Positions 1-23,433 of a DNA stretch of 64,000 bases are shown piece after piece (the first letter of the stretch is position 1; every line of letters starts with the position of its first letter). The DNA is from Variovorax sp. RA8 (GTDB lineage: Bacteria; Pseudomonadota; Gammaproteobacteria; Burkholderiales; Burkholderiaceae_C). Position numbers and translations under genes: made by a program. The notes under the pieces were generated by a model. That model saw nothing but the letters and a program-made list of their open reading frames with translations, was not told the origin of the DNA and ran no database searches. The stretch is taken from assembly GCF_901827175.1 (NCBI RefSeq), contig NZ_LR594662.1:3224001-3288000 (forward strand), given 5' to 3'.

Positions 1-570
1 CGCTGGAATTTCCATCACCTCTTCGTCGCTGCCACGCTGGGCGTGGCGCACCCGCAGGCGCGCGGGTGTGGCCATGGGACCCACCAGTTGCACGCGCCAA
101 ACACCGTTCCCGCTCTGTCCCCGGTATTGCTTGAGTACCCGTGGGCCGTGGCGGAGTCGTTCTGGCAATTCCTCCTCGAGTTGTTTGAGGCTGTCGACTC
201 GGCAAACGTCGCTGCCAAACGGGAGATCGCGCGTGTGGAACAAGACGTCCTTGGTTCCCAGCTTCAGGATGGCCTCCGGATGCGCGCTGACCACAATCCC
301 CGAGTCGGCAACCCGCCGCAGCATGGCGTCCAGGACATCCCGTCGTCGTCCGCCTTCGATGGGATTGCACCAGACCAGCACGAGGCGGCAGTTGCGCAGC
401 TGCGTCTCCACTTCTTCGGCGAAGTCGTCGTTGTACACGGCAGGGACCGCCGTCACGCCGGCGAGGGCGAAAGCATCAAACAACGCAGCAAACCGGCTCT
501 CGGTCGGATCAGAGCGATCCCGCATGCGGCGATCGCCTGGATAAAGTAATGCGACGGTTGATGTAGGCAA
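1..570 (-). CDS. ATP-grasp-like (Cj0069-type) protein, N-terminal part, cut by window edge
   Basis: These are the first 190 residues of the gene that is complete in copy 2 at 18240-19277, with identical sequence. The start is taken as a TTG at 568-570, which has a GAGGAG ribosome-binding site six bases upstream; the first in-frame ATG would be 15 codons further in. It diverges from chrB. The 3' part lies left of the window, so whether this copy is complete cannot be judged here. See the entry in copy 2 for function. Confidence 0.75.
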   Translation of the reverse strand, partial: MPTSTVALLYPGDRRMRDRSDPTESRFAALFDAFALAGVTAVPAVYNDDFAEEVETQLRNCRLVLVWCNPIEGGRRRDVLDAMLRRVADSGIVVSAHPEAILKLGTKDVLFHTRDLPFGSDVCRVDSLKQLEEELPERLRHGPRVLKQYRGQSGNGVWRVQLVGPMATPARLRVRHAQRGSDEEVMEIPA

Positions 571-736
571 GGGCAACTCCTCAGCGGCTCACACGCCAGC
601 AAGCTGCCAGAGCAATTGAAGCGTATTTCATAAGGTCCTCATGGCATTCATAAGAGCTTCAGCAATGGATACCCCCACTGGGCCGAAGAGAGCCTCGACC
701 AGCAAAGTATTCGCGTTTCTGGTCTGTTGACTCTTT

Positions 737-758
737 TAATGTCGAGTTCAAGACATTA
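737..758. promoter_or_regulatory. chrB operator-like inverted repeat, copy 1
   Basis: TAATGTC and GACATTA form perfect 7-bp arms around an 8-bp spacer. A TTGACT hexamer lies just upstream (727-732) and a near-consensus -10 hexamer TATGAT at 762-767, only 6 bp before the chrB ATG, so a transcript from it would have almost no leader. The site is a good candidate for autoregulation by ChrB, but binding is inferred. Confidence 0.55.
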
Positions 759-773
759 CAGTATGATCATGAC

Positions 774-1745
774 ATGAGTTTGCTGTTCTTGCCACCCTGG
801 TTGTTGCTGATTGTTTCGCTGCCTACATCCGGCGCCACCGCGCGGACCCGCATTTGGCGGGCGTTGAAGTCGCTTGGCTGCATGGCATTACGGGACGGGG
901 CGTATCTCCTACCAGCTGGTGAGGAACGCGAAGTGGCGCTGCAGGAACTGGCTGAGGAATGCCGGCGCGAGGGAGGCCACGCGTGGCTGATGGACGTGCA
1001 GCCGCGGTCCGTCGACGAAGCTGCAACCTACCGGCAGCTGTTTGACCGCAGCGACGATTACGCCGAGCTGTGCAAGTCCTGGAAGGAGGCGGGACGCACG
1101 CTCAGCGGGCTGGCGGGGTCCGAGGTCTCGCGCATGCAGCGCAGGCTGCAGCGCGAGCGCGACATGGTGCGGGCCATTGACTTCTTCCCCGGCGACGCGA
1201 GCCTGGAGGCAGAGGCGGCCTGGACGGAGTTCACCCAACGCATCGAGCGGGTGTTGTCGCCAGACGAGCCTCACGAAACGGCAGGCGGCATTGCCAGGCT
1301 GGATGCGAGCAGCTACCAAGGCCGGACGTGGGCCACGCGACGTCGGCCCTGGGTGGACCGCGTTGCCAGCGCATGGTTGATTCAGCGCTTCATCGACCGC
1401 GATGCGCGTTTTCAGTGGCTGTCCCAGCCGTCAGATTGCCCGAAAGGCGCACTCGGTTTCGATTTCGACGGCGCGGCGTTTACGCACGTGGGCGAGCGGG
1501 TGACCTTCGAGACGCTAATGGCTAGCTTCGACCTGGAGCAGGATGCTGCGCTCATGCGCGTCGCCGCGCTTGTACACCAGCTCGACGTGGGCGGCGAACC
1601 GGTCGCCGAGGCTGCAGGCTTCGAGGCCGTGCTGGCAGGCGCGCATCAACGCCTGGACGAGGACGACGCGCTGCTGGCGGAGATGAGCAAAATGCTCGAC
1701 TCCCTGTACGCGTACTTTCAACAAGCTGGCGGTCGCCCAGGATGA
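774..1745 (+). CDS. chrB: Chromate resistance regulator/protein ChrB, copy 1
   Basis: A 323-residue protein of the ChrB family, a chromate-sensing regulator that accompanies ChrA transporters. The N-terminal part resembles the PaaX-like region of ChrB (helical, with IWRALKSLG near residue 26). The C-terminal domain begins near residue 185 with RRRPWVDRVASAWLIQRF and contains the conserved LGFDFDGAAFTHVGE. It is the first gene of a chrB-chrA-(exported protein)-chrC run on the same strand. No ribosome-binding site precedes the ATG, while a -10-like TATGAT sits 6 bp away, which would suit a leaderless message. The family is known to respond to chromate; regulation of this copy is inferred. Identical to 17065-18036. 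Confidence 0.92.
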   Translation: MSLLFLPPWLLLIVSLPTSGATARTRIWRALKSLGCMALRDGAYLLPAGEEREVALQELAEECRREGGHAWLMDVQPRSVDEAATYRQLFDRSDDYAELCKSWKEAGRTLSGLAGSEVSRMQRRLQRERDMVRAIDFFPGDASLEAEAAWTEFTQRIERVLSPDEPHETAGGIARLDASSYQGRTWATRRRPWVDRVASAWLIQRFIDRDARFQWLSQPSDCPKGALGFDFDGAAFTHVGERVTFETLMASFDLEQDAALMRVAALVHQLDVGGEPVAEAAGFEAVLAGAHQRLDEDDALLAEMSKMLDSLYAYFQQAGGRPG

Positions 1746-1960
1746 CCCAGATGATCCGCCCAGCCCCCCGCACATTGGTGAGTTTCGCGCCAAGTTACCC
1801 CGAGCCACACCTGGAACCCACCCAACTGCCGATAGCGACTTTGATTCAACCAACCACCTGTTCTGTAACCATGACCGGATAACGCCATGACACTTTTCCT
1901 GACCGGCTTGCGCGCCGCTTCGATCATCCGTCCCAACCTCAACACTGAACCGGGGGCAGC

Positions 1961-3189
1961 ATGAGTGCGCAGACGACCACCGGCGCTGCCGGCCCCGAGG
2001 CCGTGCCTCCGACGCTGACGTACTTTCAGCTTTTCATGCGGTTTCTCAAATTCGGCTTCCTTGCCTGGGGAGGCCCGGTGGCGCAGGTCGCCATGCTGCG
2101 CCGGGAACTGGTGAACGAGGAACGATGGATTTCCAGCGAACGCTTCAACCGCTTGCTGGCCGTGATGCAGGTGCTGCCCCGGACCCGAGGCGCACGAGCT
2201 GTGCGTGCATCTGGGCATGCGTGCGAAGGGGCGGCTGGGCGGGGTGCTGGCCGGTCTCGCATTCATGCTCCCGGGATTCCTGTTGATGCTGGCGCTGTCA
2301 TGGCTTTACTTCCGGATGGACATCGCTGGCACGGCACTGGGCGCCGCGTTCCTTGGTGTACAGGCAGCATGATCGCCCTGATCGTACGGGCGGTGCACCG
2401 GATCGGCGAGCACATCCTGGTGGACCGTTGGCTGTGGGCCATCGCCATCGTGGCCGCACTCGCCTCCGCCGCCGGCGTGGCCTTCTGGATCACCCTGCCA
2501 GCGCCGGCGGCGTCTATGCCTTGTGGATGCTCAAGCGTGGCAGGCTCGCCCTCCTGGTCGCTGCCGGCGCGGTGGCGCTGGCCGCCGCGATGGCGCTCTG
2601 GGCGCGCGCGCACAGCCGCTGGTGGAGGCGGTCGTCCAGGGCGAGGCCTTCGCTGCTGCTCATCTTCGTCGCCGGGGTTGAAGGCGGGCCTGCTCACCTT
2701 CGGCGGTGCCTACACGGCGATCCCGTTCATCCGCAATGACGCGGTCGGCCGCGGCTGGATCACCGACGGCCAGTTCTCGACGGCCTGGCCTTGTCTGGGG
2801 TGCTGCCCGCGCCGCTCATCATCTTCGCCACTTTCGTTGGCTATGTTGCCGGCGGGCCGCTCGGTGCGCTGGTCATGACCGCCGGCGTCTTTCTTCCCGC
2901 GTTTGCCTTCTCGCTGATCTTCTACGACCGGCTCGAGGCAGTGCTAGAGGTCAAGGAGATGCACGCCTTCCTCGACGGCGTCGCCGCCGGGGTGGTCGGC
3001 CTAATCGCCGCGACCACGGTTGACCTGGCGTTCGTCACCGCCGCGCGTGTGCCGTCGTTGGCGGTGGCCGTATCGATCTTTGTCGCGGCCTTGGCCTTCC
3101 TGTATGCCTGGAAGAACAAGCTCAACATCGCAGTCGCGATCATCGGGGCCGGAGTCGCGGGTTGGCTGCTGATGCCGAGCGGCGCGTGA
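1961..3189 (+). pseudogene. chrA: chrA chromate transporter, copy 1, disrupted by seven 1-base indels
   Basis: Copy 2 encodes an intact 409-residue ChrA at 15620-16849. Here the same DNA has an extra base near 2178, lost bases near 2370, 2502 and 2604, extra bases near 2646 and 2675, and a lost base near 2775. These scramble residues about 73-135 and break the frame in the second half, leaving a 305-codon frame from the start and a separate frame from 2791. Most changes lie in runs of C or G. Everything else in the 9-kb arms is identical, so local sequencing or assembly error is at least as likely as genuine decay. If corrected, the product is a membrane chromate efflux protein. Confidence 0.85.
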
Positions 3190-3200
3190 GCCAGCAGGGT

Positions 3201-3686
3201 ATGCAGCCTGTTGCTTGCCCTCGCTCAGCGCGCTGCGTCGCGTTAAAGGTCGCTCCGATCAAGAAAAGTCGCGCCAGCGGAGGCCTCGGCTCAACCCGCC
3301 TAGACGGACGGCTGCGCCGAAACGTTGCTTGCGGTTGCTTGCTGCTCGTGCTTGGTGCATGGACGCTGCCGGACGTGGCCGCTGAATCGGCGGCTTTTGC
3401 TCCTTTGAATGGCCAGCAGATCCGCTCCGCGTTGCGCGGCAGCTCAGTCGGCGACGGGAGACATTGGGAGCATCAGTACCTCCCCGATGGTCGACTCATC
3501 CGCTCCGAGAGCGGGACAAGCAAAGCGGGCCAATGGTCGGTTCAAGGCGACCAGCTGTGCCTGCTGAAGCCCGAGATCAGCAGCACACAGGCGGCGTGCT
3601 TCTCGGTGCATCGACGAGGCAACGAGTTGCAGTACCTAGATGGGCAGCAACTCGTATATCAAGGTTTTCTTAAAAGGAGTTCATGA
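3201..3686 (+). CDS. Exported protein of unknown function between chrA and chrC, copy 1
   Basis: A roughly 161-residue protein that I do not recognise. A charged N-terminus is followed by a hydrophobic stretch ([14 protein letters not shown]) ending in an alanine-rich cleavage-like site (DVAAES), suggesting export. The mature part is small and hydrophilic, with sequences such as YLPDGRL and [12 protein letters not shown] typical of small periplasmic beta-rich proteins. The open frame extends upstream into the end of chrA (3162), but the ATG at 3201 avoids that overlap; the true start is uncertain. Its stop codon overlaps the chrC start, so the two are probably translated together. A role in chromate resistance is inferred from position only. 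Confidence 0.65.
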
Positions 3687-4306
3687 TGACTACATCCCCA
3701 GCATTTCAAAGTCAGGACGCGCTCAAGCCGCTGCCGTTCGATCCGTCAAAACTAACGGGTCTGTCCGAACGAATGATTCGTTCCCATTGGGAAAACAATT
3801 ACGGCGGCTCGGTCAAGGCACTGGCCGCTGTCAAGGCCCGGCTGGTGCAGGCCGCAGGCGACAAGGACCTGCCGCCCTACATCTACAACGACCTGAAGCG
3901 CGAGCACCTAATTCGCACTGGATCGGTGGTGCTGCACGAACTGTATTTCGAGAACCTCGGGGGCAGTGGCGAGGCCGCAGCTACCGAGCGAGAGGCGATC
4001 GCTCAAGCCTTCGGCAGCTTCGAAGACTGGGAGAGGGAATTCCGCCGCATCGGTGCCGGCCTCGGTGGGGGGTCCGGCTGGGTGGTTCTTGGGTTCAACC
4101 TGCACACCAGGCAGCTGGAAAATTACTGGATGGCCGATCACGCGCATGGACCGGCCGCCACCGTTCCGATCCTGGTGATGGACATGTACGAGCACTCTTA
4201 TCAGATGGACTACGGCGCTGCGGCGGCGAAATACATTGATGCTTTCTTCCAGAACATCCAGTGGGAGAGCGTGAGTGCACGGCTGGCCGGCGCACGTGCG
4301 ATATGA
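3683..4306 (+). CDS. chrC: ChrC, iron superoxide dismutase-like protein, copy 1
   Basis: A 207-residue protein of the Fe/Mn superoxide dismutase family, as found in chr operons where it would remove superoxide formed during chromate reduction. Visible family features are [11 protein letters not shown] near residue 34, [10 protein letters not shown] near residue 80, the GSGWVVLG core strand and the [11 protein letters not shown] metal-ligand segment near residue 165 (canonical proteins have D-x-W-E-H-A-Y; here Met replaces Trp). A strong ribosome-binding site, AAAGGAG, sits three bases before the ATG at 3683 and six before the adjacent ATG at 3686, so the second is a likely real start. Identical in copy 2. 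Confidence 0.9.
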
Positions 4307-4362
4307 GGCATTTAGCGTTGCATGTGGCGGGTTGGCACTCTCTCGTGTGCACGTGAAGATAG

Positions 4363-4587
4363 GCATCTCCGGACACCGACGGCGCGACGGCGCGACGGCT
4401 CGGTATTCTCACAGGCGCGGACCCAAGCTGGCTGGTCTTGGTGCCCTTGTCCATCCTGGCCGAGCAACTGGTGCGTGCATGGAACTGGCGCCAATTGCTG
4501 TACCCCCTGCGCCCGGCGGGGCGCTTCGATTTGTTCGGCACCATCATGGCTGGCTACCTGCTGGCGGAGCGGGGCAAGCCACGCTAA
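4363..4587 (+). pseudogene. Remnant of an unidentified membrane-protein gene, copy 1
   Basis: The 305-bp gap between chrC and the recombinase contains a frame open from a TAG at 4360 to a TAA at 4585, with no good start codon. It reads as plausible protein: a hydrophobic segment (WLVLVPLSILAEQLV) followed by RAWNWRQLLYPLRP and GYLLAERGKPR at the end. It looks like the C-terminal tail of a lost gene left by an earlier rearrangement of the transposon cargo. The family is not recognised. The chrF gene that follows chrC in some known chromate transposons is not evident here. Confidence 0.35.
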
Positions 4588-4611
4588 TGGACAGGCGAAA
4601 AACAAACTGAA

Positions 4612-5922
4612 ATGAATCGTGTTGTTGACTACATCGAAGCCGCTGAGCGCGACAACACGCGTCGGAGCTACGCTTCGGCCATACGACATTTTGAAATAGA
4701 GTGGAAAGGCCTCCTGCCCTCGACGGCTGACGCCATCGCCCGCTACCTCGCCGACTACGCGCCTACCTTGGCCATCAACACCCTTCGCCAGCGGCTGGCG
4801 GCACTGTCCCGATGGCATGCCGACCAAGGTTTTGCGGACCCCACCAAGTCGCCCTTGGTGCGCCAGGTCCTTAAAGGCATTCGCTCAATTCACGCCGTGC
4901 CAGAAAAGCGCGCGCGCCCCCTGGAGCTGGCGGTGCTCCAGCAGATCGACCAGTGGCTCGATGTCGCGATTGGCAACGCCCAGCGGTCCGGCGACCGGCC
5001 GGCCTTGCTGCGCCAAACCCGCAACCGCAGCCTGATGTTGCTGGGGTTCTGGCGCGGCTTTCGCTCCGACGAGTTGGTCAACCTGCGCGTAGAGAACATC
5101 GAGGTGACGCCGGGCCAGGGCATGGCGTGCTACCTGGGCCGCACCAAAGGCGACCGGCAGCTGCAGGGCCGTGTTTTCAAATGCCCAGCCTTGTCCCGCT
5201 TATGTCCCGTGACGGCCTTCAATGCCTGGATCGACCTGGCCGGGTTGACCGAGGGTCCGGTGTTCCGCAAGATCGACCGCTGGGGGAATGTGGCCGACGA
5301 AAGTCTGCATGCCGACAGCCTGATTCCGTTGTTGCGCAGCCTGTTCGCCGAAGCCGGTGTCGAGTCGCCCGAGGAATACAGCAGCCACTCCTTGCGCCGC
5401 GGCTTTGCCGGCTGGACCCGCGCCAGCGGCTGGGACATCAAGGAACTGATGGAATACGTCGGCTGGAAGGATGTCAAATCGGCCATGCGCTACCTCGATG
5501 CGTCGGATTCCAGCCTGCAGGCCCGGTTCGAGCAGGGCCTGACGGCCCTGGCACCGGCAGTTCCGCAGCTACTGCCATTGTTGTTGACCGAACAAATCGA
5601 AGCGCCCCGCCCACCGGCCGAAGGAACGACGCCCATGGCAGTCCTGCGCGTCACGCTGGTGCTGGCCCGCTTCAGCAAGCAGTCGCGCGGCCTGGCTCGC
5701 GGTCACCGGCTGATCGAGCAGACCTGCTTTGAGCGTTTCGCCATGCAACGCCTGAACACCGAGGGAACGCTCTACGAGCTCGCAGTTCCCTACCTGTCAC
5801 GTGACTTGCTGGACGAGGTGATCGCCACGCTGCTCGATGACATGTACCGCATCGCCGAGGACAACCAGTGCCTGCTGGAAACCTCATTTCACGAACCCGC
5901 GACCGACACCTACTGGGATTGA
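4612..5922 (+). CDS. Tyrosine site-specific recombinase (cointegrate resolvase candidate), copy 1
   Basis: A 436-residue phage-integrase-family recombinase. The N-terminal SAM-like core-binding domain spans about residues 10-100. The catalytic domain shows R151 (GFRSDEL), H259 and R262 (HSLRR), W285 (VGWKD) and the nucleophile Y294 (AMRYLDAS). About 140 residues follow the tyrosine, a longer tail than usual. It lies 42 bp upstream of tnpA in the same direction and probably shares its message. Most Tn3-family elements use a serine resolvase (TnpR); some, such as Tn4430 and Tn4651, use tyrosine recombinases, so a role in resolving cointegrates is a reasonable inference. Identical in copy 2. Confidence 0.9.
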   Translation: MNRVVDYIEAAERDNTRRSYASAIRHFEIEWKGLLPSTADAIARYLADYAPTLAINTLRQRLAALSRWHADQGFADPTKSPLVRQVLKGIRSIHAVPEKRARPLELAVLQQIDQWLDVAIGNAQRSGDRPALLRQTRNRSLMLLGFWRGFRSDELVNLRVENIEVTPGQGMACYLGRTKGDRQLQGRVFKCPALSRLCPVTAFNAWIDLAGLTEGPVFRKIDRWGNVADESLHADSLIPLLRSLFAEAGVESPEEYSSHSLRRGFAGWTRASGWDIKELMEYVGWKDVKSAMRYLDASDSSLQARFEQGLTALAPAVPQLLPLLLTEQIEAPRPPAEGTTPMAVLRVTLVLARFSKQSRGLARGHRLIEQTCFERFAMQRLNTEGTLYELAVPYLSRDLLDEVIATLLDDMYRIAEDNQCLLETSFHEPATDTYWD

Positions 5923-5964
5923 GGCGATGGGAAGCATTGCCGCCAGGCGGGGTAGTCCCCGCGA

Positions 5965-8958
5965 ATGACCACGCTCCATGAGACGGCCTATCCCAGCCTG
6001 AAACCCGATCCGACACCCCGTGAGCTGGCGGAGCTTTACACACCGACCAAGGATGAACAACTCCTGGCTGCCGGCATCGGCAAGCGCGCCTTGCCGCGCA
6101 TGGCGGCACTGATCCACCTGAAAGTCTTCCAGCGCCTGGGCTATTTCATCTCCCTGGCCGAAGTGCCGCCGGTGATCCGGGAGCACATTGCGCAGCAGGT
6201 GGGCGTGGTTAGGCCGCCCCCGGCGGCGGACCTCAAGCGCTTCGAGGCCTCGGGCTCGCGCACCGCCTTGTTTGCGACCTTACGCCGGCACCTCAATGTC
6301 AAACCTATGAACCCGGGGGGCCACGCCTGGCTGGAGGTCGTGGCCGACACGGCGGCCGAGACCAAACACGCGGTGGCCGACATCATCAACGTGATGCTGG
6401 AGGAGCTGGTCCACCATCGCTACGAGCTGCCCGCCTTCTCGACGCTGGACCGGATGGCGTATCGAGCCCGGGAAAAGAGCAACAACCGGTATTTCTCCGC
6501 AATCACCAACCAGCTGACAGCCCATACCCGGACCTTGATCGACAGTTTGCTTAAAACCGCCACGGGCGAGTCGGTTTCTGCCTGGCAAATGCTCAAACGC
6601 GAACCCAAGCGGCCGACCAACAAGGAAACGCGCACCTACATCCAGCACATCCGGCGCTTGCAGTACCTGGTGGAGCAGCTTCCCAAGCCCGACGTGCCGG
6701 TGCCCAAGCTCAAACAGTTTCGCCACCTGGCGCGCGCCCTCAATGCGGCCGAGATGGCCGAACTCAAGCCGCAAAAGCGCTACGCCCTGGCGGTGATCTT
6801 CATCCGGGCGCAGCATGCCCAGTCCCTGGACGATGCCGCGGACCTGTTTATTCGCCTGATGCAGAACCTGGAAAACAATGCCAGGCAGAAATTGCTCTCG
6901 TTCCAGCAGGAGCGGGTCCAAAAAACCGACATGCTGGTTGGCCAGCTCAAAGACATCCTGGGCGCCTACCAGCTGGAGGGCACCGACACGCAGCGTGTGG
7001 ACGCCATCGGCACCACCCTGGTGGCCGACGTGGACGAGCTGCTCAACGAATGCGAACAGCACCTGGCCTATGCGGGCCGCAACCATCTGCCTTTCCTGCT
7101 GCAGCCCTACAAGATGGTCCGGGCCCAGTTGCTCAACTGCATCGGCATCGCCTCGCCCAAGGCCAGCAGCGAGGACCAGGTAGCGGAGCGGCTGATCGAG
7201 GCCCTTTACAAGCTGCGCGACAACCGTGCGGACATCGTGCCGCTGGACATGCTGGGCCTGACTGAAGACAAGGATTTCCGCTGGATGTCAGGCCAGTGGA
7301 AGCGGTTGGTGTTGGTCCGTCCATCCGGCAAGGGCCGGGCGGAGGCTGTCCACCGCCGGTATTTTGAACTGGCGGTCATGCATGCTGTCAAAGACGACCT
7401 GAAGTCGGGCGATCTCTTCATCAAGTACGGCGAGCGCTATGACGATTACCGCGAGCAGTTGGTCGATGACGAAACCTTTGAAAGAGAAGTGGGCGACTAT
7501 GGCCAGGTCACCGGCATCGAGACAGATCCCGGCACCTTTGTGGCGATGCTCAAATCGGCGATGTCCCAGCGGGCCCACGACATCGACGCCACTTTCCCGG
7601 AAAACGCCCATGCCGAGATCGTCGACGGCCGCCTGATCCTGCGGAAACCGCCGCGCTCAGAAATCGTCGAGGCGGCCGCGCGGATCGACGCCCTGATCAC
7701 CGAGCGAATGGAGGCGGCCAGCATCGTGGACGTCATGATCGACACCGAGCGCTGGTTGGACCTGCACAAGCTGTTCCGGCCACTCGCCGGGACCGACAGC
7801 CGCCTGGAGGATCTGCGCATGCGCGTCATCACGACGCTGTTTTGCTACGGCTGCAACCTGGGGCCCGTGCAGACCGCCAAATCGATCAAAGGTCTGAGCC
7901 GCCGGCAGATTTCCTGGCTGAACTTGAAATACGTCAGCGAGGACCTCCTGGACAAGGCCATTGTCAAGGTGATCAACGCCTACAACAAGTTTGAGCTGCC
8001 AGGCTACTGGGGCACGGGCAAACACGCGTCGGCGGACGGCACCAAGTGGAATCTTTACGAGCAAAACCTACTGTCCGAGCACCATATCCGCTATGGTGGG
8101 TACGGCGGTATCGGCTACTACCATGTATCGGACAAGTTCATCGCGCTGTTCAGCCATTTCATTTCCTGCGGCACCTATGAGGGCATCCACATCCTTGACG
8201 GGCTGATGACCAACGAATCGGACATTCGACCGGACACGATTCACGGGGACACCCAGGCCCAGAGTTACCCGGTCTTCGCGCTGGCGCACCTCCTGGGCAT
8301 CCAGCTCATGCCGCGCATCCGGGGCATCCAAGACCTCAAATTCCATCGCCCGGAGCCGGGCAATGTTTACCGCAACATCAATGCGCTGTTCAGCGATGTG
8401 ATCGACTGGCGGCTGATTGAGCTGCATTTGCCGGCGATGCTGCGGGTGGCGGTTTCCATCAAGACCGGCAAGATCACGCCGTCGGCGATCCTGCGCCGGC
8501 TCGGCACCTACAGCCGCAAGAACAAGCTGTATTTCGCGTTTGTAGAGCTTGGCAAGGTCATCCGGACCATGTTCCTGCTGAGCTACATCGGCGATGTCGG
8601 GCTGCGCAAGGTAATCCATGCCGAAACCAATAAGAGCGAGCAGTTCAACGGCTTTGCTCAGTGGTCATTTTTTGGGGGAGAAGGGATCATTGCGGAGAAC
8701 ATCCGGCACGAGCAGCGCAAGGTGATCAAGTACAACCACCTGGTGGCCAACATGATCATTCTGCACAACGTGGTGGGCATGACGAAGGTGCTGCAGGAGC
8801 TTCGCGACGAGGGGACCGAGATCACGCTGGAGATCCTGGGCGGCCTGGCGCCGTTCCGCACGGCGCACATCAACCGGTTTGGTGACTACACGCTGGATTT
8901 TCGGCGGAAGATTGGCCCCTTGAACTTCGATGCCACCATAATCCCAATGGAATCATAG
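5965..8958 (+). CDS. tnpA: Tn3-family DDE transposase TnpA, copy 1
   Basis: A 997-residue transposase, the normal size for the Tn3 family, which performs replicative transposition by binding the 38-bp terminal repeats. Its catalytic acids are visible at D691 (SADGTK), D762 (IHGDTQ) and E892 (NKSEQFNGF), spaced as in other family members. The conserved end segment contains YNHLVANMIILHNVVGMTK. It ends ten bases before the terminal repeat. The frame is intact and identical to copy 2, consistent with recent duplication and a functional enzyme. Confidence 0.97.
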   Translation: MTTLHETAYPSLKPDPTPRELAELYTPTKDEQLLAAGIGKRALPRMAALIHLKVFQRLGYFISLAEVPPVIREHIAQQVGVVRPPPAADLKRFEASGSRTALFATLRRHLNVKPMNPGGHAWLEVVADTAAETKHAVADIINVMLEELVHHRYELPAFSTLDRMAYRAREKSNNRYFSAITNQLTAHTRTLIDSLLKTATGESVSAWQMLKREPKRPTNKETRTYIQHIRRLQYLVEQLPKPDVPVPKLKQFRHLARALNAAEMAELKPQKRYALAVIFIRAQHAQSLDDAADLFIRLMQNLENNARQKLLSFQQERVQKTDMLVGQLKDILGAYQLEGTDTQRVDAIGTTLVADVDELLNECEQHLAYAGRNHLPFLLQPYKMVRAQLLNCIGIASPKASSEDQVAERLIEALYKLRDNRADIVPLDMLGLTEDKDFRWMSGQWKRLVLVRPSGKGRAEAVHRRYFELAVMHAVKDDLKSGDLFIKYGERYDDYREQLVDDETFEREVGDYGQVTGIETDPGTFVAMLKSAMSQRAHDIDATFPENAHAEIVDGRLILRKPPRSEIVEAAARIDALITERMEAASIVDVMIDTERWLDLHKLFRPLAGTDSRLEDLRMRVITTLFCYGCNLGPVQTAKSIKGLSRRQISWLNLKYVSEDLLDKAIVKVINAYNKFELPGYWGTGKHASADGTKWNLYEQNLLSEHHIRYGGYGGIGYYHVSDKFIALFSHFISCGTYEGIHILDGLMTNESDIRPDTIHGDTQAQSYPVFALAHLLGIQLMPRIRGIQDLKFHRPEPGNVYRNINALFSDVIDWRLIELHLPAMLRVAVSIKTGKITPSAILRRLGTYSRKNKLYFAFVELGKVIRTMFLLSYIGDVGLRKVIHAETNKSEQFNGFAQWSFFGGEGIIAENIRHEQRKVIKYNHLVANMIILHNVVGMTKVLQELRDEGTEITLEILGGLAPFRTAHINRFGDYTLDFRRKIGPLNFDATIIPMES

Positions 8959-8968
8959 ACTTAGGGTC

Positions 8969-9006
8969 GTTTCTGCTGGGTTTTACATGAATCCCTGCCG
9001 ACCCTC
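8969..9006 (+). repeat. 38-bp terminal inverted repeat, tnpA end of copy 1
   Basis: Reads inward from the outer edge as GAGGGTCGGCAGGGATTCAT followed by GTAAAACCCAGCAGAAAC. The same 38 bp occur at 9803-9840 and 23129-23166. At the tnpA ends the repeat is itself bounded by a small palindrome (AGGGTCG inside, CGACCCT outside) that is absent from the distal end. Confidence 0.95.
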
Positions 9007-9011
9007 CTGCT
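9007..9011. repeat. 5-bp target-site duplication CTGCT (partner at 23167-23171)
   Basis: The five bases adjoining the end of copy 1 are the complement of those adjoining the distal end of copy 2 at 23167-23171. Within the aldo/keto reductase coding sequence they are read in the same sense, as ...GCC CTG CT and CTG CTG GCC... A 5-bp duplication is the Tn3-family hallmark. Confidence 0.9.
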
Positions 9012-9630: not shown

Positions 9631-9647
9631 CCACTGGGGCCTTCGCT

Positions 9648-14197: not shown

Positions 14198-14221
14198 TTC
14201 AGTTTGTTTTTCGCCTGTCCA

Positions 14222-14446: not shown

Positions 14447-14502
14447 CTATCTTCACGTGCACACGAGAGAGTGCCAACCCGCCACATGCAACGCTAAATG
14501 CC

Positions 14503-15126: not shown

Positions 15127-15608
15127 GAACTCCTTTTAAGAAAACCTTGATATACGAGTTGCTGCCCATCTAGGTACTGCAACTCGTTGCCTCGTCGATG
15201 CACCGAGAAGCACGCCGCCTGTGTGCTGCTGATCTCGGGCTTCAGCAGGCACAGCTGGTCGCCTTGAACCGACCATTGGCCCGCTTTGCTTGTCCCGCTC
15301 TCGGAGCGGATGAGTCGACCATCGGGGAGGTACTGATGCTCCCAATGTCTCCCGTCGCCGACTGAGCTGCCGCGCAACGCGGAGCGGATCTGCTGGCCAT
15401 TCAAAGGAGCAAAAGCCGCCGATTCAGCGGCCACGTCCGGCAGCGTCCATGCACCAAGCACGAGCAGCAAGCAACCGCAAGCAACGTTTCGGCGCAGCCG
15501 TCCGTCTAGGCGGGTTGAGCCGAGGCCTCCGCTGGCGCGACTTTTCTTGATCGGAGCGACCTTTAACGCGACGCAGCGCGCTGAGCGAGGGCAAGCAACA
15601 GGCTGCAT
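15123..15608 (-). CDS. Exported protein of unknown function between chrA and chrC, copy 2
   Basis: Identical to 3201-3686. About 161 residues, unrecognised, with a signal-peptide-like segment near residues 40-60 and a small hydrophilic mature region. The stop overlaps the chrC start and the start lies 11 bp after chrA ends, so it sits inside the chr operon. The N-terminal stretch before the hydrophobic segment is unusually long for a signal peptide, so the true start may be further downstream at a non-ATG codon. Confidence 0.65.
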
Positions 15609-15619
15609 ACCCTGCTGGC

Positions 15620-16849: not shown

Positions 16850-17064
16850 GCTGCCCCCGGTTCAGTGTTGAGGTTGGGACGGATGATCGAAGCGGCGCGC
16901 AAGCCGGTCAGGAAAAGTGTCATGGCGTTATCCGGTCATGGTTACAGAACAGGTGGTTGGTTGAATCAAAGTCGCTATCGGCAGTTGGGTGGGTTCCAGG
17001 TGTGGCTCGGGGTAACTTGGCGCGAAACTCACCAATGTGCGGGGGGCTGGGCGGATCATCTGGG

Positions 17065-18036
17065 TCATCCTGGGCGACCGCCAGCTTGTTGAAAGTACGC
17101 GTACAGGGAGTCGAGCATTTTGCTCATCTCCGCCAGCAGCGCGTCGTCCTCGTCCAGGCGTTGATGCGCGCCTGCCAGCACGGCCTCGAAGCCTGCAGCC
17201 TCGGCGACCGGTTCGCCGCCCACGTCGAGCTGGTGTACAAGCGCGGCGACGCGCATGAGCGCAGCATCCTGCTCCAGGTCGAAGCTAGCCATTAGCGTCT
17301 CGAAGGTCACCCGCTCGCCCACGTGCGTAAACGCCGCGCCGTCGAAATCGAAACCGAGTGCGCCTTTCGGGCAATCTGACGGCTGGGACAGCCACTGAAA
17401 ACGCGCATCGCGGTCGATGAAGCGCTGAATCAACCATGCGCTGGCAACGCGGTCCACCCAGGGCCGACGTCGCGTGGCCCACGTCCGGCCTTGGTAGCTG
17501 CTCGCATCCAGCCTGGCAATGCCGCCTGCCGTTTCGTGAGGCTCGTCTGGCGACAACACCCGCTCGATGCGTTGGGTGAACTCCGTCCAGGCCGCCTCTG
17601 CCTCCAGGCTCGCGTCGCCGGGGAAGAAGTCAATGGCCCGCACCATGTCGCGCTCGCGCTGCAGCCTGCGCTGCATGCGCGAGACCTCGGACCCCGCCAG
17701 CCCGCTGAGCGTGCGTCCCGCCTCCTTCCAGGACTTGCACAGCTCGGCGTAATCGTCGCTGCGGTCAAACAGCTGCCGGTAGGTTGCAGCTTCGTCGACG
17801 GACCGCGGCTGCACGTCCATCAGCCACGCGTGGCCTCCCTCGCGCCGGCATTCCTCAGCCAGTTCCTGCAGCGCCACTTCGCGTTCCTCACCAGCTGGTA
17901 GGAGATACGCCCCGTCCCGTAATGCCATGCAGCCAAGCGACTTCAACGCCCGCCAAATGCGGGTCCGCGCGGTGGCGCCGGATGTAGGCAGCGAAACAAT
18001 CAGCAACAACCAGGGTGGCAAGAACAGCAAACTCAT
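17065..18036 (-). CDS. chrB: Chromate resistance regulator/protein ChrB, copy 2
   Basis: Identical to 774-1745: 323 residues, ChrB family, with the WVDRVASAWLIQRF segment opening the C-terminal domain. It heads the chr operon and is divergent from the ATP-grasp-like gene, sharing a 203-bp intergenic region that contains the TAATGTC/GACATTA palindrome. ChrB proteins are known to control chr expression in response to chromate. Confidence 0.92.
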   Translation of the reverse strand: MSLLFLPPWLLLIVSLPTSGATARTRIWRALKSLGCMALRDGAYLLPAGEEREVALQELAEECRREGGHAWLMDVQPRSVDEAATYRQLFDRSDDYAELCKSWKEAGRTLSGLAGSEVSRMQRRLQRERDMVRAIDFFPGDASLEAEAAWTEFTQRIERVLSPDEPHETAGGIARLDASSYQGRTWATRRRPWVDRVASAWLIQRFIDRDARFQWLSQPSDCPKGALGFDFDGAAFTHVGERVTFETLMASFDLEQDAALMRVAALVHQLDVGGEPVAEAAGFEAVLAGAHQRLDEDDALLAEMSKMLDSLYAYFQQAGGRPG

Positions 18037-18051
18037 GTCATGATCATACTG

Positions 18052-18073
18052 TAATGTCTTGAACTCGACATTA
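18052..18073. promoter_or_regulatory. chrB operator-like inverted repeat, copy 2
   Basis: Mirror of 737-758: perfect 7-bp arms with an 8-bp spacer immediately upstream of chrB. It lies between chrB and the divergent ATP-grasp-like gene and could control both. Confidence 0.55.
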
Positions 18074-18239
18074 AAAGAGTCAACAGACCAGAAACGCGAA
18101 TACTTTGCTGGTCGAGGCTCTCTTCGGCCCAGTGGGGGTATCCATTGCTGAAGCTCTTATGAATGCCATGAGGACCTTATGAAATACGCTTCAATTGCTC
18201 TGGCAGCTTGCTGGCGTGTGAGCCGCTGAGGAGTTGCCC

Positions 18240-19277
18240 TTGCCTACATCAACCGTCGCATTACTTTATCCAGGCGATCGCCGCATGCGGGATCGCTCTG
18301 ATCCGACCGAGAGCCGGTTTGCTGCGTTGTTTGATGCTTTCGCCCTCGCCGGCGTGACGGCGGTCCCTGCCGTGTACAACGACGACTTCGCCGAAGAAGT
18401 GGAGACGCAGCTGCGCAACTGCCGCCTCGTGCTGGTCTGGTGCAATCCCATCGAAGGCGGACGACGACGGGATGTCCTGGACGCCATGCTGCGGCGGGTT
18501 GCCGACTCGGGGATTGTGGTCAGCGCGCATCCGGAGGCCATCCTGAAGCTGGGAACCAAGGACGTCTTGTTCCACACGCGCGATCTCCCGTTTGGCAGCG
18601 ACGTTTGCCGAGTCGACAGCCTCAAACAACTCGAGGAGGAATTGCCAGAACGACTCCGCCACGGCCCACGGGTACTCAAGCAATACCGGGGACAGAGCGG
18701 GAACGGTGTTTGGCGCGTGCAACTGGTGGGTCCCATGGCCACACCCGCGCGCCTGCGGGTGCGCCACGCCCAGCGTGGCAGCGACGAAGAGGTGATGGAA
18801 ATTCCAGCGCTCTTGGCAAGACTGGCTCCGTACTTCGAGCCGGAGAACGGCGGACACATGATCGACCAGGCATGGCAACCGCGCTTGGTGGAAGGCATGG
18901 TGCGCGCCTATCTGGTGGAGGATCGGGTCGAGGGCTTCGGGCACCAGTCGGTGAACGCGCTCTACCCCGCCAAACCTGACGAGCCGGCACCGCCGTCCAG
19001 CCCGAGGCTGTACCACGCCGCAAATCTGCCGCAGTTCCAGTTCTTGAAGGAACGACTGGAGACTGAGTGGGTCGAGTTGCTCCGCACACGCGTCGGCCTT
19101 TCGCGCGAGCAACTTCCGTTCCTCTGGGACTGCGACTTCATGTTCGGAGAATCTATCGCCGATGCCTCTGAGCGCTATGTGCTTTGCGAAATCAACGTCA
19201 GCAGCGTAGCGCCGTTCCCGGACTCCGCCATCCAGCCGCTCGTTTCGGCTGTTCAACGTCGTCTAAAGCAGATTTGA
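18240..19277 (+). CDS. ATP-grasp-like (Cj0069-type) protein
   Basis: A protein of about 345 residues that resembles ATP-grasp ligases of the glutathione synthetase type without a defined reaction. Supporting segments are LKQYRGQSGNGVWRV near residue 143 (ATP-binding loop-like), GHMIDQAW, and DCDFMFGE followed by YVLCEINVSSVAPFP near residue 315 (metal-binding Asp/Glu/Asn pattern). No transmembrane or signal segment. A TTG start at 18240 is chosen because GAGGAG sits six bases upstream; a TTG at 18234 and an ATG at 18285 are alternatives. It is divergent from chrB within the transposon. A link to metal or oxidative stress is inferred from context only. Confidence 0.7.
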   Translation: MPTSTVALLYPGDRRMRDRSDPTESRFAALFDAFALAGVTAVPAVYNDDFAEEVETQLRNCRLVLVWCNPIEGGRRRDVLDAMLRRVADSGIVVSAHPEAILKLGTKDVLFHTRDLPFGSDVCRVDSLKQLEEELPERLRHGPRVLKQYRGQSGNGVWRVQLVGPMATPARLRVRHAQRGSDEEVMEIPALLARLAPYFEPENGGHMIDQAWQPRLVEGMVRAYLVEDRVEGFGHQSVNALYPAKPDEPAPPSSPRLYHAANLPQFQFLKERLETEWVELLRTRVGLSREQLPFLWDCDFMFGESIADASERYVLCEINVSSVAPFPDSAIQPLVSAVQRRLKQI

Positions 19278-19487
19278 TCGCCTGTTGCGCACGTTGCCAC
19301 AGCCAAGTAGCTGCGAACCTGACTTTTGGCCTAAGTGATTGACGCGTGTTCTATCAAGCTGGTGTATGTAGGCTAGCCACCGACTCTCGTCTATTGCAGG
19401 ATGCATAAGAATACTGGCCATGGCCGGGGTTAGGCTGGCAACGTCAGCAGGGAGCTTGACCACTGACCGCACGAGAGTGCGGCCTAG

Positions 19488-19994
19488 TCAAAAGTCGAGT
19501 TCGTCGCGGATAGCAGCAATGCCCGCTTTGGCGCAGACGTCATCGGCATCCCCGCCCGGCGCGCCCGAAACCCCAATGGCGCCCACGATGGAGCCAGCCG
19601 ATTCAATGGGAATGCCACCGCCGATGGCCACGATGCGGGGAAGGTGTCGCACGCCAGATGCGGGTTCACCTCCTTGAGTGGAACGGGTGAAACTCGTGGT
19701 ATCGAGTTTGAAGGTCACGGCCGTGTAGGCTTTGTTGATGGCCGTATCGACTGTGTGTGGACCGGCGAAACGGTCGCGAAGCATAACGAGCGCGTTGCCG
19801 GCACGGTCATTGACCGATACGGCAGCTTGATGGCCATTTTTTCGGCAAGTCTCTAGCGCAGCCCGTGCCGCCTTCAAAGCGGCATCTGGCGTCAAGGAGG
19901 CTGACGTGAAAGTGGCTTGTTGTGCCAGTAGCAAACCAACAGGCATTCCAAGCAATAAGACGAAGGTCAGAGTTGATTTTTTTGCAGTGCGCAT
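19488..19994 (-). CDS. Exported GlcG/HbpS-family protein
   Basis: A 168-residue protein with a clear signal peptide (hydrophobic FVLLLGMPVGLLLA near residue 11, then QQATFTS). The mature part is a GlcG/HbpS domain: SVNDRAGNALVMLRDRFAGPHTVDTAINKAYTA in the middle and the GGGIPIES...GAIGVSGAPGGDADDVCA signature at the end. Family members bind haem or small ligands; HbpS is an extracellular haem-binding sensor accessory. Here it is a single gene inside the transposon, opposite in direction to its neighbours. Export suggests periplasmic binding or redox protection, but no substrate can be read from the sequence. Confidence 0.85.
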   Translation of the reverse strand: MRTAKKSTLTFVLLLGMPVGLLLAQQATFTSASLTPDAALKAARAALETCRKNGHQAAVSVNDRAGNALVMLRDRFAGPHTVDTAINKAYTAVTFKLDTTSFTRSTQGGEPASGVRHLPRIVAIGGGIPIESAGSIVGAIGVSGAPGGDADDVCAKAGIAAIRDELDF

Positions 19995-20724
19995 TGGTAG
20001 AAAATTCCTTTTCAGCGGTCATGTGATTTGAGTTCAGGTGCCTCGAGGCGCTTTTGCTGGCTAACTTCGATTCTCCCGCAATCTGCTCATTCTGGTGGGC
20101 ATTTGCAAGCACTATCGAAGCACCCATTATTGGCGTTTTGCCTTGCGCAGAAGCGATATGCATCCGGAAACTCGAAAGCCTGGTGCTTGAGGGTTAAGAA
20201 GCCGTGCTTGAAAACGCCGCTGACACGCGGTTGCAATGCCGCCTTGCAGTCAAGCACGTTGAGATAAGCGAGATTCCCGCGCATCCGGCTCAACTGGGTT
20301 GAATCGGAATAATGGCATTCCTGGGTCTGCTTAAGAATGGGTACGAAATCACAGCGAACTGTGATGTTCGCCGTTCCTCTGCGCTCAGTTTGGCGCGGCA
20401 GTCGCGAAATGGCTCTTTGGCTAACTAATTCGAATAATCAACTTTCACGACAGCTCCTGGTCGGCCGCCCGCCTTTCAGTCATATTTGCCCTCGTAGATA
20501 GTCTGGCATCCGCCGAGACACATCAGCAAGGCAGGGAGAAACCATACTTGCGCGTGCGCATGCTTACGCTGTTCATGCAAATGCCGATGACTTGGGACCC
20601 GGCAGGCATGTCACGGAGGGAATGATCATGGTGCTCGTCATCGTGGCTAAGCGTGCCATTCCGGCACGGTTATGCTTCGCGGGACAGCAGGATGATGCAG
20701 GCAGTTATTTGTAAGGAGAATTCG
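19995..20724. other. 730-bp stretch without a convincing gene inside the transposon
   Basis: Only short frames of under 80 codons occur on both strands, and none has a ribosome-binding site or family resemblance. Two structures stand out. A perfect 10-bp palindrome GCCTCGAGGC near 20042 is followed by a short T-run. An 18-bp hairpin at 20348-20365 has ATCACAG/CTGTGAT arms around CGAA. GC content is visibly lower than in the surrounding cargo. It may be a scar of gene loss or a regulatory region for the gene at 20725. Confidence 0.5.
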
Positions 20725-21042
20725 ATGCAACTCAAAACCATGGAGGCCGTGAGCGTGGTGCATCAGATCCGATGTGACCGGTGCGGCAAAGAGACCGAGC
20801 GTGGCGAGCTTGGCTTCGCCGAGATGACGTCGATCGGCTTCGACGCGGGCTATGACTCGATTTTTGGGGACGGAAATCGGGTTGAGGCGGATTTATGTGA
20901 GACCTGTCTGCGTGACACCTTGGGCGCATGGCTCAGGGTCAGGACACAGGCCGAAACGTCTTTGGCGACCAAGCTGGCAGCATTCAAGCCGGAGGTACAT
21001 GGAGGGGAGTTCCCTCCACCCAAATCAGCAGGGCCCGGATAA
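20725..21042 (+). CDS. Small zinc-ribbon-like protein of unknown function
   Basis: A 105-residue soluble protein with two Cys pairs (CDRC near residue 17, CETC near residue 60) that could hold one metal ion. No further family resemblance is recognised. The ATG at 20725 is chosen because AAGGAG lies seven bases upstream; the longer frame from 20653 lacks one. It ends seven bases from the convergent antitoxin gene. It may be a redox or metal-binding accessory carried by the transposon, which is inference. Confidence 0.7.
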   Translation: MQLKTMEAVSVVHQIRCDRCGKETERGELGFAEMTSIGFDAGYDSIFGDGNRVEADLCETCLRDTLGAWLRVRTQAETSLATKLAAFKPEVHGGEFPPPKSAGPG

Positions 21043-21049
21043 AGGCCAA

Positions 21050-21379
21050 TCAGTCAAACTGCAGTTCGATCTTGCCGGCGCGGCGCCGCACCGGGCCGAC
21101 CACGATCTTCACGTCATGGCCCAGCCTGGCCACCAGCTCCAACAGTTTGGCCTCGCTGACGCCGCGAAACTGGCCGCGCGTGATGCGCGAAACCTTGGAC
21201 TGGTCGATCCCCAGCAGCGCAGCCGCATCTTCCTGCGTCAAGCGGCGCGCCTTGATCGCTCGGGCGATCTCGCCGGCGAGCTGGGACTTGCGCTGCATCT
21301 CGGCCGCGTCGGTGTAGCCCAGGTCGGCATAGACATTGGTGCTGCCTTCTTCGGTGGTGATGCTTGCGGGTTCACTCAT
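21050..21379 (-). CDS. HTH Xre-family antitoxin
   Basis: A 109-residue protein whose central part is a helix-turn-helix of the Xre/HigA type: LTQEDAAALLGIDQSKVSRITRGQF near residues 47-72. It ends in a basic tail. Its ATG overlaps the toxin stop by four bases (ATGA), the usual toxin-first arrangement for this subgroup. Such antitoxins neutralise the partner and repress their own promoter. The gene is intact whereas the toxin is not, so it may survive as a regulator only. Confidence 0.85.
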   Translation of the reverse strand: MSEPASITTEEGSTNVYADLGYTDAAEMQRKSQLAGEIARAIKARRLTQEDAAALLGIDQSKVSRITRGQFRGVSEAKLLELVARLGHDVKIVVGPVRRRAGKIELQFD

Positions 21380-21748
21380 TTGCGTGCTCCTTGCTGTGCC
21401 TGCCAAGCTTCGAAGTCCTGCTTCGGCCTTCAGGCGGGTGGTGATCAATCCGGTTTCGGCGTGGCGATGCCGCTTTGGGACTTCTTCTGAAAGCAGTGCA
21501 GGACATAGACCCAGCCGGCGAACTTGACGGTGTAGACGCCCGGTGAGTGTCGCCCTGGGGGTCCTCGACCACCTCCAACACGCCGGCCGACCAAAACCCG
21601 TCATGACCTTGGCATCCTGATGCTTGCCACTGGCCTGCGCCAGGTCGATGGCATGGCCAAAAACGTCTTTGACATAGTCCGGCATCGCATCCAGATCGCG
21701 CTTGGCGGAACTGACCCATTTGACGGGTTTGCGGGTTTGCTTCGACAT
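21376..21748 (-). pseudogene. RelE/HigB-like (Gp49-type) toxin with several 1-base deletions
   Basis: The N-terminus reads well (MSKQTRKPVKWVSSAKRDLDA, then DYVKDVFGHAIDLAQASGKHQDAKVMTGFG), after which the frame breaks. The next segments, SAGVLEVVEDPQGD and FAGWVYVLHCFQKKSQSGIATPKPD, are recoverable only by changing frame. About four single-base losses occur between roughly 21400 and 21600. The total length of 373 bp is not a multiple of three. Either the toxin is inactivated or this stretch has sequencing errors of the same type as in the left chrA. The preserved stop/start overlap with the antitoxin shows the pair was once functional. Confidence 0.75.
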
Positions 21749-21962
21749 CGCTTAAATTATGTCTGTTTGGGCATAATCCCGTCAATTCGCCGGGGCGGAC
21801 CTTTTTCGGGGACGCGAGTTTTGTTCCGCGCGGTCATAAGCGCATATGACGCCACATTAGGCCGACCCCAAACCGCTACCACGGCTGAAACCATCAAAAA
21901 TTACCCTCACATTGGATAATCCACTATTACCCAGTGTGATATTTACTAAGATCTATGATTTA

Positions 21963-22002
21963 TTGACCTCTTAAATAGTATGTAATATCATGGTACATAC
22001 TA
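21963..22002 (+). promoter_or_regulatory. Promoter and overlapping palindrome upstream of the KfrA-like gene
   Basis: TTGACC at 21963-21968 and TATCAT at 21986-21991 form a sigma-70 promoter with a 17-bp spacer. A perfect inverted repeat with 9-bp arms TAGTATGTA and TACATACTA (21976-22002, 9-bp spacer) covers the -10 element. The position suits repression by the gene's own product, as known for KfrA of plasmid RK2. A tyrosine recombinase core site of this geometry is the alternative reading. Confidence 0.65.
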
Positions 22003-22026
22003 CAGTACGAAATAACGAGGTGAACC

Positions 22027-23124
22027 ATGGCCCGAGCCGGAATCTACAAGTCTGAAGTGCTGCGTGCCCGCGATAAATTGCTGGCCGCAGGGCGCAATCC
22101 GTCCATCGATGCGGTGCGCGAAGAGCTGGGCAGCGGCTCCAAAACCACGATCCATCGCTACCTGAAGGAGATCGAGGAAGAGGAAGGGCCAGCCACCGGC
22201 AGCCGCGTAGCCGTCAGCGAGGCAATCCAGGACCTGGTGGGTCGCCTAGCCGCCCGCGTCAATGAAGAAGCGGAAGAGCGGGTCACCACGGCGCAGGCCA
22301 AGCACGCCGAGCAGCTGAGCCAACAGCAGCAAGCCGTCGCGGCCCTGAAATCCGAGGCGCTGGCCACGCGCCAGCAGCTGGAGCAAACCCAGCGGGCCCT
22401 GGCCGACGAAAAAAACGCTCACGGCAAAACCAGCGAAGCTCTGAGCCGCAAGACCCTGGAAAACACTCAGCTCGTCCAGCAGGTGGCCGACCTGCAGGAG
22501 CGCCTCGCGGCCGAAGAGCGCCATCGCCAATCCCTGGAAGAAAAGCACAAGCACGCGCGCCAGGCGCTGGAGCATTTCCGGGAATCCACAAAGGAGCAGC
22601 GCGACCAGGACCAGCGCAAGCACGAACAGCAGGTGCAGTACCTGCAGGCCGAGTTGCGCACCGTGAACGAGACCTTGGCCACCAAGCAGCAGGAAGCCGT
22701 CCATACCCTTCAGGAAAACGCACGCCTCCTGGGCGATTTGTCGCGCGCCCAGGGCGATCTGCACCAGGCTCAGGAAGAGGTGCGAGGCCTGCGGCCGCTC
22801 AAGGATGAACTGGGGTTTGCGCAAAGGCGCTCCGAGGAATTGGGCCGGCGCCTGGTTGAGCAGGACGCGGCCGTCCAGCAGCTCAGCACTTCCAAAGAGC
22901 AGTTGCAGGCCAAGGTCGACGAGCTGCTTTCCGCCAAACAACAGCTGGAACTGGCGCTGGCGACGGCCAGGTCATCCGTCACGGCCCAGGAGCAGGTCGT
23001 GGCCAGCATGCTTGAGCGCTTCAGTACGCCGGCGACTGGCCCTAATTTGGTTGCGAACCCGGTTGAAGAGGCCGGTCGTCCAGGGAAGAGAGAGTCGAAA
23101 AAGTCAACGGGGACAGGCACTTAA
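22027..23124 (+). CDS. KfrA-like DNA-binding coiled-coil protein (TnpT-like candidate)
   Basis: A 365-residue protein. Residues 1-60 resemble the plasmid replication-region DNA-binding domain of KfrA (AGIYKSEVLRARDKLLAAGR, then GSGSKTTIHRYLKEIEEEE). Residues about 75-330 are one long coiled coil rich in Gln, Glu, Ala and Leu. A short basic tail follows. KfrA proteins bind operator DNA and polymerise; Tn4651 uses a coiled-coil helper, TnpT, with its tyrosine recombinase TnpS. By analogy this may assist cointegrate resolution, but it could be only a partitioning or regulatory protein. The gene ends five bases from the distal terminal repeat and has its own promoter. Confidence 0.8.
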   Translation: MARAGIYKSEVLRARDKLLAAGRNPSIDAVREELGSGSKTTIHRYLKEIEEEEGPATGSRVAVSEAIQDLVGRLAARVNEEAEERVTTAQAKHAEQLSQQQQAVAALKSEALATRQQLEQTQRALADEKNAHGKTSEALSRKTLENTQLVQQVADLQERLAAEERHRQSLEEKHKHARQALEHFRESTKEQRDQDQRKHEQQVQYLQAELRTVNETLATKQQEAVHTLQENARLLGDLSRAQGDLHQAQEEVRGLRPLKDELGFAQRRSEELGRRLVEQDAAVQQLSTSKEQLQAKVDELLSAKQQLELALATARSSVTAQEQVVASMLERFSTPATGPNLVANPVEEAGRPGKRESKKSTGTGT

Positions 23125-23128
23125 GCCT

Positions 23129-23166
23129 GTTTCTGCTGGGTTTTACATGAATCCCTGCCGACCCTC
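23129..23166 (+). repeat. 38-bp terminal inverted repeat, distal end of copy 2
   Basis: Identical over all 38 bp to the repeats at 8969-9006 and, inverted, at 9803-9840, and unrelated immediately inside. It marks the element's right border. Confidence 0.95.
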
Positions 23167-23171
23167 AGCAG
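23167..23171. repeat. 5-bp target-site duplication (partner at 9007-9011)
   Basis: AGCAG on the + strand is CTGCT in the sense of the interrupted aldo/keto reductase and equals the bases at 9007-9011. Confidence 0.9.
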
Positions 23172-23369
23172 GGCGCCCACCACCGCCTCGGCGCGGCCGT
23201 ACATCGGCGAGCTGTCGATCAGCGTGCCGCCGGCGGCGAACAGGGCATCCAGCACGCCCGGCAGGCGCTGGTGCCCGGCGCTGCCGGGGCTGACATCGAA
23301 GCCGATCCAGGTGCCGCAGCCGATCACCGGGAGGGCTTCGCGGGTGGAGGGGATGGGGCGGGTGGTCAT
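23167..23369 (-). pseudogene. Aldo/keto reductase, 5' part, cut by the transposon
   Basis: The first 67 codons of an aldo/keto reductase, from an ATG at 23369 (an in-frame ATG at 23378 is an alternative). It contains the nucleotide-site entry LPVIGCGTWIGF and GGTLIDSSPMYGRAE, with the Asp and Tyr of the catalytic tetrad, and stops at the transposon after VVGALL. It continues exactly at 9007. The gene is divergent from the imuA operon; its own promoter probably lies within about 90 bp and close to the LexA box. Confidence 0.92.
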
Positions 23370-23433
23370 GCTGATCATTGGCTTTTCCGCATGATCGTCC
23401 CGGACTTGCAAAAAGAAAACATGAGCCCCCGAA

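Follow-up and report, generated by a model that had tools for sequence, protein, structure and literature searches.

The window analyzed here is a 64,000-nt stretch of Variovorax sp. RA8 (contig NZ_LR594662.1; G000:C1:3224001-3288000), within the 6,501,578-base contig C1 of a 7.42-Mb genome assembled in four contigs. It contains two inverted copies of one Tn3-family transposon, with their transposase (tnpA) ends facing each other across a spacer of 796 bp (window 9007-9802). In this spacer, 786 bp are inverted in comparison with the same locus in related genomes, the 5-bp target repeats are paired crosswise between the copies, both original gene joints can be read and the copies are nearly identical. 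We consider it probable that the locus was made by a single intramolecular replicative transposition in trans. The mechanism is known, and the locus is a new and unusually complete case of it. We did not find it reported in the open-licence literature, in searches aimed mostly at the mechanism.

Reversed spacer and crosswise target repeats

The copies, their flanks and the two genes split by them are the following (residues are those of the intact proteins of the related locus L099):

G000:C1:3219644-3233006 (13,363 bp; window part 1..9006), + strand: copy 1, complete element
9803..23166 (13,364 bp), - strand (inverted versus copy 1): copy 2, complete
9012..9797, - strand: 786-bp segment inverted versus the relatives' locus
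9007..9011, + strand: CTGCT, target-site partner (reverse complement) of AGCAG at 23167-23171
23167..23171, + strand: AGCAG, target-site partner of CTGCT at 9007-9011
9798..9802, + strand: ATGCT, half of the other target site, paired as reverse complement with AGCAT at C1:3219639-3219643, left of the window
C1:3218795-3219646, + strand: alpha/beta hydrolase, N-terminal part, residues 1-284 (outside the window)
9651..9803, - strand: alpha/beta hydrolase, C-terminal part, residues 282-332 (inside the spacer)
9007..9615, + strand: aldo/keto reductase, C-terminal part, residues 131-333, PF00248
23166..23563, - strand: aldo/keto reductase, N-terminal part, residues 1-132

An earlier reading of the window, made from its letters alone (the sequence-only reading), had described head-to-head inverted copies with tnpA ends facing over 796 bp, with CTGCT at the tnpA end of copy 1 and the distal end of copy 2, and ATGCT at the tnpA end of copy 2. 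Rereading the window sequence gave the same arrangement and the same flanks. Copy 1 had been placed at 1-9006; its right end is correct, but the length is not, since these 9,006 bp are only the last part of a complete 13,363-bp element that extends 4,357 bp past the left window edge. Beyond this edge, AGCAT and the N-terminus of the hydrolase had been predicted directly left of the outer repeat of copy 1, and both were found there: the left flank ends ...GGGGCGAGCAT, directly followed by the outer 38-bp end. The aldo/keto reductase halves also lie on opposite strands, as described, when compared with the intact L099 protein.

Each target repeat has one half at each copy, in inverted orientation (CTGCT/AGCAG and AGCAT/ATGCT), and the probability of both 5-bp pairs matching at the required places by chance is about 1e-6, considering equal base frequencies. 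The whole genome contains four tnpA copies (two on C1, one on C2, and one on C3), and none of the four elements (0/4) has a matching 5-bp repeat of its own. The 5-bp target duplication is seen crosswise here, as 5-bp overlaps at the empty sites, and as direct repeats in related elements from two draft genomes (L015 and L017).

We searched 100 genomes of the genus, the RA8 genome included, with the 796-bp spacer; all gave some match, and the junctions were compared in the loci of the 19 best-matching of the 99 relatives. We rebuilt the empty site by joining the left flank, the reversed spacer and the right flank, with each 5-bp site kept once. One alignment crosses both junctions of this rebuilt site in 15 of the 19 loci and the right junction only in the other 4. 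For the present orientation, a junction was counted as spanned when an alignment reached 50 bases on each side, and neither junction was spanned in any of the 19 relatives' loci. In L099, the rebuilt site gives a single match of 3,787 bases (91.3%), while the present order gives at least three separate pieces. AGCAT itself is found at the left site in 4 of the 15 loci spanning there, and AGCAG at the right site in 16 of 19, with variation in the others. Since the relatives' loci carry the spacer reversed, the 786 bp are inverted in this genome.

Copy 2 is letter-for-letter identical to the copy on C3. Copy 1 differs from both by 7 single-base insertions or deletions (indels) and no substitution over 13.36 kb, all of them clustered in a stretch of about 600 bp inside chrA (window about 2178-2776) and none elsewhere. 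These are probably sequencing or polishing errors, and they put chrA out of frame in the assembly. The C2 copy has 11 scattered single-base indels compared to copy 2 and the C3 copy, again with no substitution. The description of the arms as still identical therefore holds for substitutions, but not for the 7 indels of copy 1. The lack of substitutions indicates that the events are recent, or that the copies were kept alike by recombination.

Routes to the present arrangement

In the proposed single jump, a 13.36-kb chromate-resistance element of the Tn4651/TnXax1 type would first have occupied one of two sites separated by 786 bp, AGCAT in the alpha/beta hydrolase gene or AGCAG in the aldo/keto reductase gene. 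The transposase would nick both transposon ends and join them to the other site, on opposite strands of the same molecule (in trans). Replication through the element would then duplicate it in inverted orientation and flip the intervening 786 bp, and the two halves of each 5-bp target pair would be divided between the copies as reverse complements. Because the product is symmetric, the first-occupied site is not readable from the sequence. All of this would be one event, driven by TnpA. Inverted copies, an inverted segment and an inversely split target repeat are the in-trans product according to the legend of Fig. 1 in PMC5142620, and passages of PMC9330008 describe inversion as the outcome of in-trans attack in the intramolecular transposition of the Tn3 family and Tn1.

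The sequence-only reading had already suggested one intramolecular replicative transposition. Its predicted left flank and the reversed spacer in relatives agree with this, but the configuration is not unique to it, and some points weigh against a single jump. A crossover between the inverted copies interconverts the present configuration and two ordinary insertions, leaving the birth event unproven, and because of this toggling the single event is something that we infer. If target choice is uniform, a target 0.8 kb off is as improbable for a jump as for a second insertion; such closeness for any of the six copy pairs would have a probability of about 1.3e-3 under uniform targets, unless local targets are favoured. 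Target immunity might also disfavour a short intramolecular jump, and immunity partly influences the size of intramolecular deletions, as stated in passages of PMC9330008. In addition, the C2 and C3 copies hint that the copies in this genome may recombine with one another.

Such recombination is the last step of a history that we regard as unlikely, in which two opposite insertions, at AGCAT and AGCAG and each with its direct repeat, were followed by a crossover between the copies that flipped the 786 bp, made either by RecA or by the TnpS-like recombinase on inverted rst sites. The resulting sequence would be identical to the observed one, donors are available elsewhere in the genome (four tnpA copies), and inverted 13.36-kb repeats 796 bp apart should be good recombination substrates. 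The C2 and C3 copies, which re-pair into one perfect repeat (TGGCT/TGGCT), also fit recombination between copies. However, this history needs two hits within 791 bp in a 6.5-Mb chromosome, the second of them despite the protection that Tn3-type target immunity should give there (PMC9579193), and three steps instead of two. The closeness of the two hits, at 791 bp, is equally required if two ordinary insertions were made and the flip is only a choice of the assembly, since only reads of more than about 14 kb could fix the orientation of the 796-bp segment between the 13.36-kb inverted repeats. The unpolished-looking indels (7 clustered in copy 1, 11 scattered in the C2 copy) suggest that read placement may be imperfect, but a four-contig assembly with all four 13.4-kb copies placed probably had reads crossing the element, and we consider this very improbable. 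Inverted repeats with short spacers are also a known shape of artefacts, and a fold-back read or palindromic misassembly could simulate a second copy where only one is real. This is the least credible of the explanations and close to negligible: a fold-back should show one and the same outer flank at both copies, while the outer flanks differ here (hydrolase versus reductase N-terminus), and both join the spacer exactly at the 5-bp sites in relatives. We keep the single in-trans jump as the probable origin.

Transposon copies on the C2 and C3 contigs

The two other copies are located on separate contigs of about 0.43 Mb each:

G000:C3:246348-259711: C3 copy, with TGAAT on the distal side and TGGCT on the tnpA side
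G000:C2:139877-153231: C2 copy, flanked by TGGCT and GCATT

When each copy is read in its own direction, AGCAT, CTGCT and TGGCT are each shared crosswise by two copies. The left arm of the C2 copy was searched in 101 genomes, 51 of which matched, and the loci kept were its own and those of 11 relatives. In all 11 relatives' loci examined, the C2 left arm and the C3 right arm adjoin; the 5-bp overlap was seen directly in 10 of them, and in L126 the second match starts at base 10, in step. Joining these arms restores one tyrosine recombinase (integrase) frame, split here between the two contigs. In plasmid 3 of Variovorax sp. WDL1, where the gene is annotated as a site-specific integrase, one alignment of 1,058 bases (91.5%) crosses the join. 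A second, unsplit integrase locus (C3:229529-230584), 88-89% identical to the split one, is found about 16 kb from the C3 copy.

The first gene of each contig, starting exactly at its edge, is ParA-like and has ParB behind it, and a Rep3-type domain is encoded close to the other end, as would be seen in closed and rotated replicons. C2-type ParB (at least 79% identity) was found in 6 of 100 relatives, and C3-type ParB (at least 70%) in 1 of 100, which also has the C2 type on another contig. The signs of which replicon carried the target are mixed. In G023, the integrase locus is on a contig bearing C3-type ParB. WDL1 plasmid 3 has partition genes matching those of C2 at 68%, and shares DNA (77.8%) with the stretch beside the partition genes of C3. 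The pair could have been formed by a replicative fusion that separated again at another place, by an in-cis jump splitting a fused replicon, by recombination between copies or by wrong pairing in the assembly. The fission of one ancestral replicon into C2 and C3 is weakened, because the two partition systems are mostly found separately; an exchange between two replicons or the fission of a fused replicon fits better. When the 20-kb arms of C2 and C3 were compared with G014, G022, G023 and WDL1 plasmid 3, homology was mainly restricted to the integrase, and a second crossover could not be mapped.

TGAAT and GCATT, the two flanks left over, do not match each other. In the same-genus genome G051, GCATT is directly preceded by 382 bases for which the RA8 genome offers only partial and weak matches (72% over 118 bases and 68% over 165). 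The gene ending there is presumably IS66-like, judging from its translated end. This flank seems to have been lost here, in the manner of an adjacent deletion. Next to it lies a 1.1-kb repeat, present in 7 near-full copies in the genome. The C2 transposon end is inside what we take to be an IS66-type gene, beside a chloroaromatic catabolic cluster. The right flank of this copy (C2:153232 onward, L190) is 99.9% identical over 6.3 kb to this cluster in Hydrogenophaga and Variovorax plasmids, the ccd cluster of linuron degraders according to part of PMC7039861. On C3, a mer operon (mercury resistance) is found in the stretch left of the copy (C3:226348-246347, L191), with 79% identity to Methylibium plasmids.

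A broader reading, which is possible but which we doubt more than we believe, takes all four copies as products of rearrangement and not as simple insertions, with one jump having flipped a chromosomal segment, another having exchanged arms between the ~0.43-Mb replicons, and the element acting as a recurrent rearranger. The arm exchange would then have split the integrase gene and left one copy against the ccd cluster. The jumps of such an element would often be intramolecular or end as unresolved fusions, perhaps because the cargo separates the two resolution genes.

Natural cases in which both target sites, both gene joints and near-identical copies are readable are useful as a reference, and the C2/C3 pair widens this one beyond the chromosomal locus. 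The crosswise pairing of flanks offers a simple genome-wide test, the comparison of the left repeat of each copy with the right repeat of every other copy, by which inversions and replicon exchanges caused by transposons could be found in finished genomes. The locus also bears on whether Tn3-type target immunity spares jumps within one molecule. Finally, a prediction made from raw sequence proved testable and came true.

Element architecture and comparison with known systems

The element has about 13.36 kb and 38-bp ends, with adjoining tnpA and tyrosine recombinase genes, a KfrA_N gene at the far end and the cargo between them. Its features in the window are:

8969..9006, - strand: 38-bp terminal inverted repeat, tnpA end of copy 1
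9803..9840, + strand: 38-bp terminal inverted repeat, tnpA end of copy 2
23129..23166, - strand: 38-bp terminal inverted repeat, distal end of copy 2
5965..8958, + strand: tnpA of copy 1, 997 aa, PF01526 DDE_Tnp_Tn3 (domain search on the C3 copy)
9851..12844, - strand: tnpA of copy 2, 997 aa (domain search on the C3 copy)
4612..5922, + strand: tyrosine recombinase, TnpS-like, copy 1, 436 aa, PF00589
12887..14197, - strand: tyrosine recombinase, TnpS-like, copy 2
22027..23124, + strand: KfrA_N-domain protein, TnpT-like helper, copy 2, 365 aa, PF11740
21976..22002, - strand: palindrome upstream of the TnpT-like gene, copy 2, candidate part of rst by putative function (read on the C3 copy)
774..1745, + strand: chrB-like cargo, copy 1, PF09828
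17065..18036, - strand: chrB-like cargo, copy 2
1961..3189, + strand: chrA region, copy 1, out of frame through the 7 single-base indels
15620..16849, - strand: chrA chromate transporter, copy 2, 409 aa, PF02417 and TIGR00937
3683..4306, + strand: Fe/Mn superoxide dismutase cargo, copy 1, PF02777
14503..15126, - strand: Fe/Mn superoxide dismutase cargo, copy 2

The distal 38-bp end matches the tnpA end at 100% in all four copies, with the length usual for the Tn3 family (~38 bp). The 997-aa TnpA contains PF01526 (E 5.7e-141), as expected for a Tn3-type DDE transposase, and Tn4430 TnpA was its sole sequence match among solved structures. Domain searches revealed ChrB-like, ChrA-like, superoxide dismutase, HbpS-like and Cj0069-family proteins in the cargo. 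In the related loci L032 and L034, the recombinase gene is closely preceded by a divergent gene of the KfrA_N type (Pfam was run on the L032 gene), and because of these divergent neighbours we read the pair as TnpT- and TnpS-like. Genes of both types are present and divergent here too, as in the Tn4651/TnXax1 subgroup. The candidate palindrome for rst, the resolution site that this subgroup has between tnpS and tnpT, is within a stretch of 39-41 bp that matches the intergenic DNA of L032 and L034 at 87-88%. It stays by the TnpT-like gene, with the TnpS-like gene about 7.8 kb off, beyond the cargo. A TnpS/TnpT resolution module is described in parts of PMC7157771 and PMC4619425.

Two related elements are in the draft genomes of L015 and L017, with 96-97% identity in TnpA, 87-90% in the tyrosine recombinase and 83-86% in the KfrA_N gene, the same gene order and also a long interval between the recombinase and KfrA_N genes. 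Chromate genes were not found in them within the stretches compared. Matching repeats were checked in 49 loci of relatives, of which 27 show any end and 2 show both; these two (2/2) are the L015 and L017 elements, single insertions with matching 5-bp repeats (CTTCA and ATAAG). Among the plasmid matches listed, which do not include three records of at least 99%, the top-ranked is the tnpA of TnXax1 (75.7% over 1.2 kb). The ends of TnXax1 begin with GAGG, as given in part of PMC4619425, and those of this element have the same start. TnpS-like and TnpT-like genes are likewise shared with the TnXax1/Tn4651 subgroup, although in TnXax1 they adjoin, whereas about 7.8 kb of cargo separate them here. 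Cargo in the same TnpT-TnpS interval is described for TnXocp1 and relatives in passages of PMC4619425.

As for the rearrangement itself, the locus resembles the in-trans intramolecular transposition of Tn3/Tn1 and IS26, as presented in parts of PMC5142620, PMC7986276 and PMC9330008, in its inverted copies, inverted segment and split target repeat. It differs from the cases described there in that the unflipped order is visible in relatives at both junctions and both 5-bp repeats are still readable.

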